DNA of 56,402 nucleotides, taken from contig JAFBAP010000078.1 of assembly GCA_019247695.1 (NCBI GenBank), positions 1 through 56,402 on the forward strand. Direction: 5' to 3'. The notes beneath the pieces were generated by a model, which saw only the letters and a list, made by a program, of their open reading frames with translations, did no database searches and was not told the origin of the DNA. Position 1 is the stretch's first letter; every line of letters begins with the position of its first letter. This DNA is from Verrucomicrobiota bacterium. GTDB taxonomy: Bacteria; Verrucomicrobiota; Verrucomicrobiia; Chthoniobacterales; JAFAMB01. This document shows positions 24,568 through 51,703 of this stretch, one piece after another. A program made the position numbers and the translations under genes.

Positions 24568-24648
24568 TTACATAGTTGCATTACCCGAATCGGCCCCGCC
24601 GAGTCGAGCGCAGAGTTCTGGCACACCACGGCCACGGCGAAGAAACGG

Positions 24649-25033
24649 ATCACACGGCGCCACGGCGGAACACGGCGAACACGGCGGGAAGAGGGGGAAA
24701 GAGTTCGGAGTTCGGAGTTCGGAGTTCGGAGTTCGGAGTTCGGAGTTCGGAGTTCGGAGTTCGGAGTGGCATCTGGGGGGCAGGTGCGAGTGTCAAGCTT
24801 AGAGTTACCGCCCGCTCCTCTTAATCTGTGTCAATCTGTGTAATCTGTGGATGGATCCTCTTTTCTGCGTTCTTCTGCGTGTTCTGCGGATCATTTCGTT
24901 TTCCCGCCGGGTGAGCCTGACGCTCCAGGGAGATCGGGCCCGGTTCTACGACGCCTCCGGGCTCCGAACCCCGAACTCCGAACTCTTCCTCTTCCCGCCG
25001 TGGTCGCCGTGTGCCGCTGTGGCGCCGTGTGAT
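24649..25033. repeat. Composite intergenic repeat with imperfect inverted ends
   Basis: The outer arms, about 24649-24725 and 24957-25033, are inverted copies with a few mismatches, built from words such as CACACGGCGCCACGGCGG, CACGGCGGGAAGAG and GAGTTCGG. Inside are two word sets, TCTGTGTCAATCTGTGTAATC (beginning about 24824) and TTTTCTGCGTTCT with following TGCG words (about 24860-24895). The internal block recurs at 49857-50015 and the outer word at 46381-46621. It lies between the PEP-CTERM start and the VOC stop and holds no credible gene. No transposase or target duplication was seen. Confidence 0.8.
24701..24767 (+). repeat. Heptanucleotide tandem repeat (GAGTTCG)n
   Basis: Nine perfect copies of GAGTTCG are followed by a partial copy. 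The array lies inside the left part of the composite repeat. Short versions of the same word occur in reverse at 24962-24985 and 49983-50014 and forward at 46369-46379. Confidence 0.95.
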
Positions 25034-25064
25034 TCTTTCCCGCTGTGACCTTGGTGTGACGCCG

Positions 25065-41208: not shown

Positions 41209-42171
41209 ATGAAAGCGATTCGAATCCATGAATTCGGCGGCCCGGAGGTAATGAAACCGGAGGACATCCCGATCTCAAAACCCGGGCCCGGCGAAGTCCT
41301 GGTGCAGGTGAAAGCAGCGGGTGTGAACCCGTTCGAGACTTACATCCGGGCCGGAACCTACCCTGCAAAACCTGAACGGCCGTTTACCCTGGGTACGGAT
41401 GCAGGCGGCATTGTGGCTGAAACCGGTCCGGGCGTTACGGACATCGACGTGGGGGCACGCGTCTATACGGGTGGAACCATTACCGGCTCTTACGCTGAGT
41501 TCACCCTTTGCAAATCCACTCAGATCCATCCTCTGCCGCCGGCGGCGTCGTTCTCGCAAGGTGCGGCCGTGAACACCCCGTGTGCGACGGCCTACCGCGC
41601 CCTGTTCTTCCGCGCCCAGGCGCAGCCCGGCGAGACGGTACTGGTTCACGGCGCAAGCGGCGGGGTGGGCACCGCGGCGGTGCAACTCGCTCGAGCTTAT
41701 GGTTTGACGGTGATCGGTACTGCCGGCAGCGACAAAGGCCGGGAGCTTGTCCGCAGCGAAGGCGCGCACCACGTTCTGGACCATCATGCGCCGGATTATC
41801 TGGAGAAACTGCGTGAGATCACCGGTGGCGGCGGCGTCGACGTCATTATCGAGATGCTGGCCAATGTGAATCTGGGCAAAGATCTGACGGCACTTGCGCG
41901 CTCCGGCCGGGTCGTGGTTGTCGGCAGCCGGGGAACCGTGGAAGTCAACCCGCGTGACGCCATGAGCCGCGACGCCGCCGTCCTTGGGATGACGCTCTGG
42001 AACACGCCGGAGAAAGAGCTCGAGCGCATTCACGCGGCCTTGGCGGCGGCCCTGGAGAACGGGATTTTGAAACCGGTGGTAGGACGCGAATTGCCGTTGG
42101 CCGAGGCTGCAAGGGCTCACCAGATTCTGATGGAACCCGGTGCCCATGGAAAAATCGTCCTGATCCCGTGA
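41209..42171 (+). CDS. Zinc-independent quinone oxidoreductase (zeta-crystallin-like)
   Basis: This medium-chain dehydrogenase/reductase has 320 residues: a GroES-like N-terminal domain (AAGVNPFETYIRAG, TLGTDAGGIV) and a Rossmann domain with HGASGGVGTAAVQLA for NADPH. The structural and catalytic zinc cysteines of alcohol dehydrogenases are missing, as in quinone reductases of the zeta-crystallin type. It probably reduces quinones or other conjugated carbonyls. The start is crowded with overlapping ATG triplets from the GACAT repeat; ATG 41209 fits the family N terminus. Confidence 0.88.
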   Translation: MKAIRIHEFGGPEVMKPEDIPISKPGPGEVLVQVKAAGVNPFETYIRAGTYPAKPERPFTLGTDAGGIVAETGPGVTDIDVGARVYTGGTITGSYAEFTLCKSTQIHPLPPAASFSQGAAVNTPCATAYRALFFRAQAQPGETVLVHGASGGVGTAAVQLARAYGLTVIGTAGSDKGRELVRSEGAHHVLDHHAPDYLEKLREITGGGGVDVIIEMLANVNLGKDLTALARSGRVVVVGSRGTVEVNPRDAMSRDAAVLGMTLWNTPEKELERIHAALAAALENGILKPVVGRELPLAEAARAHQILMEPGAHGKIVLIP

Positions 42172-45798: not shown

Positions 45799-46365
45799 TT
45801 ACCCTTCGTCGGTCTGAAGCCCGGCATCCCTGTCCGGTAACTCCATGACAAAGCTGGCGCGCGTCTCGAGGCGCTCCGTGCCGTGCCCGGGAGGAATCAT
45901 AAGTTCCCTGAGCGTACCATCCCAGGTTTTCGCGCCCAGGTATAAGCCCACCAGCGTAATCGGGAGCCGGAACCTCCGTGGCCCGATGCTGCCCGGGTTA
46001 CAGAACCAGACTTCGTCCGACTGGGTGATGGACGCTTTGTGAGAGTGGCCCGACACGACCAGCCGCAAACCGGCTATGCGCGGGTTGAGGTCGAGCCGTT
46101 CAAGCTGGTGGAGCAGATAGACGAGTTCACCGTTGACCGAGATGATTTCGGTCGCCGGCAAGCTCAGTCGATCGCCGTCGACATTGCCGCACACGGCGAT
46201 GGTCGGCGCAAAACGTTCAAGCCACGCCAGGACACCGGCGGAGCCCACGTCTCCCGCATGCAGGATCAGGTCCGCACCGGCCAATTCCGGTTCCACGCCG
46301 GTGCGGATCAAACCATGAGTGTCCGAGAGGATGACCATTCGCTTTATGTCCGAAAAGGCGTGCAT
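45799..46365 (-). CDS. YfcE-like calcineurin-type phosphodiesterase
   Basis: The 188-residue protein has the complete metallophosphoesterase set: LSDTHG, LHAGDV, CGNVD and SGHSH, followed by CNPGS near the end, in the order of the YfcE/MJ0936 family of small phosphodiesterases. The natural substrate is unknown. ATG 46365 is used; an ATG at 46338 would remove nine residues and also gives a family-like start. The start lies 16 bases from the large inverted repeat, so the promoter must be within or beyond that repeat. Confidence 0.88.
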   Translation of the reverse strand: MHAFSDIKRMVILSDTHGLIRTGVEPELAGADLILHAGDVGSAGVLAWLERFAPTIAVCGNVDGDRLSLPATEIISVNGELVYLLHQLERLDLNPRIAGLRLVVSGHSHKASITQSDEVWFCNPGSIGPRRFRLPITLVGLYLGAKTWDGTLRELMIPPGHGTERLETRASFVMELPDRDAGLQTDEG

Positions 46366-46380
46366 GTGGAGTTCGGAGTC

Positions 46381-46621
46381 CGGTCACACGGCGGGCGCGG
46401 CGGAGAAGAATCACACGGCGCCACGGCGGGCCGCAGCGACCACGGCGGGAAGACAGAAAATTACCCGGCACCCGATGCTTGACCCCGAATTCGGCTCCTG
46501 GCAAGGATTACGCCGTGCCTGTCCAGCCGCCCTCATTGGTGGCATTCTTCTTCCCGCCGTGGTCGCTGCGGCCCGCCGTGGCGCCGTGTGATTCTTCTCC
46601 GCCGCGCCCGCCGTGTGACCG
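46381..46621. repeat. Perfect 73-bp inverted repeat (241 bp in all)
   Basis: Bases 46381-46453 are the exact reverse complement of 46549-46621, 73 of 73 positions, with a 95-base centre. The arms consist of the words CACACGGCGCCACGGCGG and CACGGCGGGAAGA known from 24649-25033. The right arm ends five bases from the dtd stop and the left arm begins 15 bases from the YfcE start. The centre carries a TTACCCGGCACCCGA word like that beside argG and no open frame of note. Without transposase, a small non-autonomous element or a large RNA hairpin are the main readings. Confidence 0.9.
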
Positions 46622-46626
46622 AATTT

Positions 46627-47079
46627 TTACTGCCACTCCCGGGTATCGATCCAGATGGTAACGGGGCCGTCGTTGATCAGACTGACTTCCATGTGGGCGC
46701 CGAATTTGCCCGACGCCACCGGGCCGCAATGCCGTCCCGCCAGTAACCGGCAAAAGCTTTCATAGAGCGCCTCGGCCTTTTCCGGGGGAGCCGCATCGAC
46801 GAAGGAGGGCCGGTTGCCTTTCTTTGTCCGCGCGAAAAGTGTGAATTGGCTGATCACGAGAATGCCGCCGGCCACCTCCGTGACGGAACGGTTCATGGCC
46901 CCTTGCGCATCCGAAAAGATGCGAAGCTGCAATGTTTTCCGTGCCAGCCACTCCAGGTCTTCCGGTCCATCCGTGACGCCGACCCCGAGCAGCATCAGTA
47001 ACCCGCTGCCGATTGCCCCTGCCTCATGGCCGTCGACCGTGACCGAAGCCGTTTTTACCCGCTGGATCAAGGCGCGCAT
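46627..47079 (-). CDS. dtd: Dtd, D-aminoacyl-tRNA deacylase
   Basis: Dtd removes D-amino acids (and glycine) wrongly attached to tRNA. The 150-residue protein has MRALIQRVKTASVTVDG at the start, the SQFTLFA motif in the middle and NDGPVTIWIDT at the end, where the Gly-cisPro motif enforces chirality. I start at ATG 47079; a reading extended to 47319 has no family character. It is divergent from the CPBP gene, 54 bases apart, and its stop touches the inverted repeat. Confidence 0.93.
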   Translation of the reverse strand: MRALIQRVKTASVTVDGHEAGAIGSGLLMLLGVGVTDGPEDLEWLARKTLQLRIFSDAQGAMNRSVTEVAGGILVISQFTLFARTKKGNRPSFVDAAPPEKAEALYESFCRLLAGRHCGPVASGKFGAHMEVSLINDGPVTIWIDTREWQ

Positions 47080-49835: not shown

Positions 49836-49856
49836 CCTATACCTCCGCCGTGTGAC

Positions 49857-50133
49857 CTTAATCTGTGTCAATCTGTGTAATCCGTGGACGTTTTCCCTTT
49901 TCTGCGTTCTCTGCGTGTTTTGCGGATGATTTCCTCTTCCCGCCGTGTTCCGCCGGACGATCGGACCCGTTGATACGACGCCTCCGAACTCCGAATGCCA
50001 AACTCCGAACTCCCTCCTCTTCCCGCCGTGTTCGCCGTGGCTCGCCGTGTTCGCCGTGTGAACTCTTACGTGGTGCCCGCCACACCCGCTGCGGCCGCCG
50101 CGTGACCGTGTGAACTCTTACGTTGTGCCCGCC
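49857..50133. repeat. Composite repeat copy upstream of argG
   Basis: From 49857 the word series TTAATCTGTGTCAATCTGTG, TTTTCTGCGTTCT, CTTCCCGCCGTG, GACGCCTCCGAACTCCGAA repeats in the same order and orientation as at 24821-25010. A 28-base direct repeat at 50054-50081 and 50106-50133 differs at one base. The region 49836-50160 thus has no room for a normal promoter outside the repeat, and argG may be expressed from within it or from tsaB. Confidence 0.8.
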
Positions 50134-50160
50134 GTGTGACCGTGTATTGGTGCAGCCGCC

Positions 50161-51457: not shown

Positions 51458-51703
51458 AATGCCACAAAGGGAAGAGGTGCCGGGTGCCGGGTGTCGAGTC
51501 GAATGCCACGAGTGACCGGCATCTCCATCTGTGGCATTCTGCTTACCACGCCGGTGACCTTCCTTGATTCCTTAACCGTGTAACCTCAGGGAGAAGGGCT
51601 CCAAATCAGGGGCTCTTCCATTCGTGGCATCGCACCCGGCACCCGCTCTTCGTTACCCGTTACCCGGCACCCGACACCCGACACCTCTTCCCTTTGTGGC
51701 ATT
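51458..51703. repeat. Inverted repeat between argG and the ketosynthase gene
   Basis: Bases 51458-51479 are the exact reverse complement of 51682-51703 (22 bases). Further in, the arms continue with GGTGCCGGGTG/GGTGTCGGGTG words with a few differences, and a second pair (GAATGCCACGAG near 51501, CTCC-ATTCGTGGCAT near 51618) is also inverted. CGTTACCCGTTACCCGGCAC at 51651-51670 matches the word at 18553-18612. The left arm begins two bases after the argG stop and the right arm ends 17 bases from the ketosynthase stop. No gene is visible. Confidence 0.85.

Follow-up and report, generated by a model that had tools for sequence, protein, structure and literature searches.

The stretch 46381-46621 is an internally shortened member of a family of hairpin-forming DNA elements, of which several hundred lie between genes in a Verrucomicrobiota genome. 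It lies in a window of 56,402 nucleotides, by which we mean the whole stretch of DNA analysed, corresponding to contig C78 of a draft assembly of 5.19 Mb in 191 contigs. We consider it rather probable that the stretch is an internally deleted copy of a dispersed mosaic hairpin element, that one of its arms was recently copied onto the other, and that the content of these elements turns over by non-reciprocal exchange.

The arms of the inverted repeat are exact reverse complements at 73 of 73 positions and are separated by a spacer (the loop) of 95 nt. For comparison, the window was shuffled 20 times with a first-order Markov model, and the longest perfect inverted repeat within 700 nt then spanned 12-14 bases. 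The 73-base repeat is thus genuine, and the perfect match claimed in a first-pass annotation of this DNA was confirmed. The features of the element, its neighbouring genes and the other family elements of the window are collected in Table 1.

Table 1 Features in and around the inverted repeat, and further family elements of the window
Feature	Position	Strand	Basis or remark
Left arm, A-type words (CGGTCACACGG...CACGGCGGGAAGA), outer end leftmost	46381..46453	+	exact inverted repeat; 61 further genome matches
Right arm, exact reverse complement of left arm	46549..46621	-	inverted-repeat comparison
Flanking B-type word (GGAGTTCGGAGTC)	46368..46380	+	sequence
Loop module M1, with C-type word GAATGCCACCAATG	46511..46552	-	multicopy; inner palindrome splits M1 from M2 in most other copies
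Loop module M2 (TAATCCTTGCCAGGAGCCGAATTCGGGGTC...GGGTAATTTTCTG)	46450..46516	-	multicopy
M1-M2 junction; the inner palindrome of full copies is absent	46511..46516	.	M1-M2 gap 6 nt
dtd (D-aminoacyl-tRNA deacylase), upstream gene	46627..47079	-	named by first-pass annotation and sequence resemblance
YfcE-type phosphodiesterase gene, downstream	45799..46365	-	46338 is a possible conserved start
Second two-sided element of the family	24620..25060	.	arm search and word mapping
Third family element	49845..50142	.	word mapping
Fourth element, composed of C-, F- and G-type words	51458..51703	.	word mapping

The right arm ends (46621) 5 bases from the dtd stop (46627), and the left arm begins (46381) 15 bases from the upstream ATG of the YfcE gene (46363-46365). 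The first of these distances, both given previously, stands as it was; the second holds for the upstream ATG only. Another in-frame ATG, at 46336-46338, better fits the usual YfcE start (MVILSDTHG), and if this is the start, the distance to the arm is 42 nt. The dtd/YfcE gene pair is kept in the independently assembled genome of a sister species (G001, a Verrucomicrobiota MAG), but without a comparable hairpin between the genes. The G001 gap also has family words, and no target-site duplication was found in 23 elements, so the repeat was not simply inserted into an empty spot, as the word "wedged" in the first-pass annotation might suggest.

Searching the genome with the arm gave 63 matches, the two arms included, the best of the others being 90% identical; the 61 further matches bear out the suggestion that its words belong to a repeat family. 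Many matches pair up, with a forward copy followed 100-400 bp on by a reverse copy. Related inverted pairs, whose absence from the genome had been named as grounds for doubt, are common, the loop recurs and perfect arms of 50-119 bp occur elsewhere, and the arrangement is therefore not unique, as had been thought. Intergenic clusters of the repeat words have a density of about one per 10 kb, the element surveys having sampled about 1.05 Mb of genome stretches. Within the second element of the window, at 24701-24767, the B word is expanded as a tandem array of a 7-base unit (GAGTTCG/GTTCGGA).

The loop is itself a repeated module, with matches at 22 other places in its own genome and no match in G001, and the arm-plus-loop architecture of 46381-46621 recurs elsewhere in the genome. 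As read from the loop-matching loci, full copies span about 350-390 bp and consist of an A-type arm, M1, an inner palindrome (TACGCCGTCTTTGCCCCGGAGCGGC...GACGGCGTA), M2 and the A-type arm reversed. The spacing between M1 and M2 is 90-103 nt in 12 of 16 measured copies and 15, 15 and 43 nt in three more, against 6 nt in 46381-46621, which is therefore an internally deleted copy without the inner palindrome. The M1-M2 join appears to sit at a short microhomology, as hairpin-mediated slippage would give.

Word order was counted using nine words; word H, which has the opposite order, was left out and treated as a separate repeat family. In all 81 two-sided clusters the forward words came first and the reverse-complemented words second (50/50 in the first 844 kb, 14/14 in another 209 kb, 15/15 in G001 and 2/2 in the distant genome G117), and because the signs of the words were partly set from examples, the independent samples (209 kb, G001 and G117) are those that matter. 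The elements are also placed with respect to genes: their edges lie at a median of 5 nt from a facing stop codon (59% within 20 nt) and 62 nt from a facing start codon (15% within 20 nt; Fisher P = 5e-9), and among gaps of at least 100 bp an element is carried by 25 of 64 convergent and 12 of 87 divergent ones (P = 5e-4), these counts being approximate, as a simple codon model was used for gene calling and elements lengthen the gaps that they occupy. None of the repeat families considered accounts for the strictness of the word order or for the boundary at stop codons.

The words at a given site differ between species. Family words were present in the same gap of this genome and G001, but as different strings, at six of six sites compared (46.4, 49.8 and 51.5 kb in the window, 23.4 and 28.7 kb in C116, and 30.3 kb in C27), a plain count over sites picked by available synteny. 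Two copies on contig C15 consist of near-identical blocks broken by unlike blocks, as segment-wise exchange would give. Element content may thus turn over by non-reciprocal exchange among copies, either through ectopic conversion or through replication template switching.

Both arms of 46381-46621 carry the same private differences from every other copy, of which the nearest is 90% identical, and each is the best match of the other. One arm was therefore probably copied onto the other, and recent copying or conversion, as first proposed, is the best account of the identity of the arms. That the two arms of an element generally evolve in concert was considered and set aside as weakly supported: over 34 arm pairs, mean identity was 0.857 within elements and 0.840 between elements (P = 0.09), and the M subfamily had no excess of within-element identity. 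The word content of the two halves of an element is usually unlike. For 5 of 64 elements, where 1 was expected, the best partner of a half was the opposite half of that same element (P = 0.003). Scanning 1.33 Mb revealed perfect arms of 119 bp at C27:30278-30396/30497-30615, spanning the whole gap between two convergent stop codons, together with arms of 60 bp at C100:10717 and of 57 bp at C208:7863 in G001, and two further pairs of 50 bp. Arm-to-arm copying would then be sporadic rather than general across the family, and such sporadic copying explains these findings better than two copies inserted independently.

In E. coli, template switching by the polymerase makes imperfect inverted repeats perfect (PMC7202029), and it has been described as a route to perfect inverted repeats (PMC8794818). 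In the present case, one arm may recently have been copied onto the other at the hairpin, by template switching within the molecule or by conversion, which would yield 73 identical bases with the private changes included; gene conversion, or the duplication of one half in inverted orientation in a single step, would look no different from template switching in the sequence. The case resembles quasipalindrome template-switch mutation in E. coli, phage T4 and yeast, where an imperfect inverted repeat turns perfect in one event (PMC7202029; PMC8794818), and both arms share changes that set them apart from all other copies, as expected of such an event. In contrast to the reporters, the arms are far longer, the loop has 95 nt, and the event is inferred from the sequence of one genome. 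The perfect arms look like a frozen instance of copying between arms, which has mostly been investigated with engineered reporters. As each genome offers several hundred natural replicates and a sister species is available, it should be possible to measure how fast ectopic exchange, homogenisation of the arms and deletion at the hairpin proceed.

Recent transposition could also give identical arms, if the stretch were a MITE (a non-autonomous transposon, here with terminal inverted repeats of 73 bp) whose insertion between dtd and YfcE was too recent for the arms to have diverged; we regard this as unlikely. The family does consist of short non-coding elements with terminal inverted repeats in many copies, it has a multicopy internal module and internal deletions, similarity between copies ends near the element edges, and the M module is absent from G001. 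However, the two- to nine-base target duplication that the first-pass annotation had proposed to look for gave no signal in 23 elements, 46381-46621 among them (mean best 1.65 vs 1.74 for shuffled flanks). No empty site was seen in G001, where this gap, like the other five compared, holds other family words; the arms of other copies usually differ, and the two halves often carry different words. No autonomous partner with the same ends was found in the 1.05 Mb sampled. Two IS200-like Y1_Tnp (RAYT) genes (G000:C19:62262-62624 and C153:14742-15080) have flanks without family words, apart from a single B word close to where contig C153 ends. With no target duplication and no partner found in these samples, the element was not classed as a demonstrated MITE.

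The predicted fold of 46381-46621 as RNA has an energy of -214 kcal/mol (z = -19), in agreement with the very stable hairpin that had been anticipated, and as single-stranded DNA the predicted value is -133. On the dtd-YfcE (sense) strand no U-tract follows the stem, while AATTTTT follows it on the opposite strand. An intrinsic terminator was rejected, as the GC-rich stem has no immediate U-tract on the dtd-YfcE strand. An Rfam search of 46381-46621 gave nothing at gathering score; MIR1437 and isrG appeared below threshold, both driven by the hairpin. An effect of the hairpin on dtd/YfcE mRNA is plausible from the sequence, and placement just past stop codons fits a putative role as a 3'-end hairpin. 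Such a role has been hypothesised for REP elements (PMC3733652), and RNase III acts on Correia elements (PMC2649163). With less certainty than the copying of the arms, we suggest that in RNA the element may be a 3'-end hairpin that protects the transcript, is cleaved by RNase III or aids termination, and that might be tolerated or favoured directly after stop codons.

Selection might also keep the arms equal if a perfect hairpin of RNA or DNA were needed, for example in dtd/YfcE transcript processing; this would accord with the very stable predicted fold and the position right after a stop codon. We nevertheless find it improbable: G001 has the dtd/YfcE pair without such a hairpin, pairing would put up with G-U pairs and mismatches and so does not require 73 perfect pairs, and the arms are imperfect in most elements. 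An assembly artefact, in which two slightly different arms were collapsed into one sequence or a fold-back read was joined, is more improbable still, for although the assembly is a draft of 191 contigs and several contig ends adjoin family copies, the loop is an asymmetric family module, other long perfect pairs are present in both genomes, and both flanks of 46381-46621 are syntenic in G001. Because of this synteny the stretch is not a chimeric join, a doubt that the first-pass annotation had raised.

Copying of one arm within a dispersed mosaic element, the reading that we prefer, places the family beside several known systems. Like the Correia elements of Neisseria (CREE/NEMIS), it is short, dispersed, intergenic and genus-restricted, with inverted-repeat ends, a core and internal-deletion variants, and Correia copies also occur with symmetrical or asymmetrical ends (PMC2649163). 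Correia elements, however, have 104-157 bp, ends of about 26 bp and a TA target duplication, whereas the present elements have about 350-390 bp and arms of about 73-110 bp, target duplication was not found, and the words assort freely between halves. By host phylum, size and target duplication the family is set apart from CREE. With REP/BIME/REPIN sequences it shares several hundred intergenic palindromic copies, a mosaic structure and frequent location downstream of genes (PMC3733652; PMC2817692), but its units are far longer than 20-40 bp and follow a strict forward-then-reverse order instead of alternating. The tetranucleotides GTAG and CGTC are absent from the arm and its complement, and with no such tag and no RAYT gene flanked by family words, assignment to the GTAG/CGTC class of REP/BIME was rejected.

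We file the family as a variant of the Correia or BIME type, in the manner of which it would work. It is a tentative alternative, and one against which we lean slightly, that it represents a previously undescribed class of intergenic element, with fixed slots after stop codons, shuffled words placed forward then reversed, content rewritten between species from other slots, and an occasional snap to a perfect palindrome. Searches of the open-access literature found no published description of the repeat family.

The family is present in G001, had no match in nine other genomes of the taxonomic family, and gave a single 29-base match in one genome of the order. The A core, a 21-base part of the arm, was counted 292 times in this genome and was absent from all 144 other sampled genomes of the phylum. 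In a phylum-wide search word D (ATCCACAGATTACACAGATTAACACAGATT) occurred 129 times here, 22 times in a distant genome and once in a further one. From these counts, the A-type family looks genus-restricted, and word D looks older or shared. In G117, a distant genome of the phylum, D words at L175:1490-1930 (G117:C1:4210145-4210543) have the same forward-then-reverse order, and the D word there begins with TTATCCACA, which we take to resemble a DnaA box.

Other repeats were observed in the course of the analysis. In five clusters of another dispersed repeat (AACCCTGGGCTA / TAGCCCAGGGTT) the order is reversed, the reverse copy coming first (L096, L097, L099, L106; e.g. L097:19136-19533), and inverted pairs related to it reach 92 perfect bases (C27:41003-41094 / 41332-41423). 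At L068 and L069 (genomes G010 and G008, from other genera of the taxonomic family), different words (CTCACGCAAAGACGCAAAGGCGC) occur in inverted pairs of 19 and 34 bp, and a like architecture built from other words may exist in these genera.
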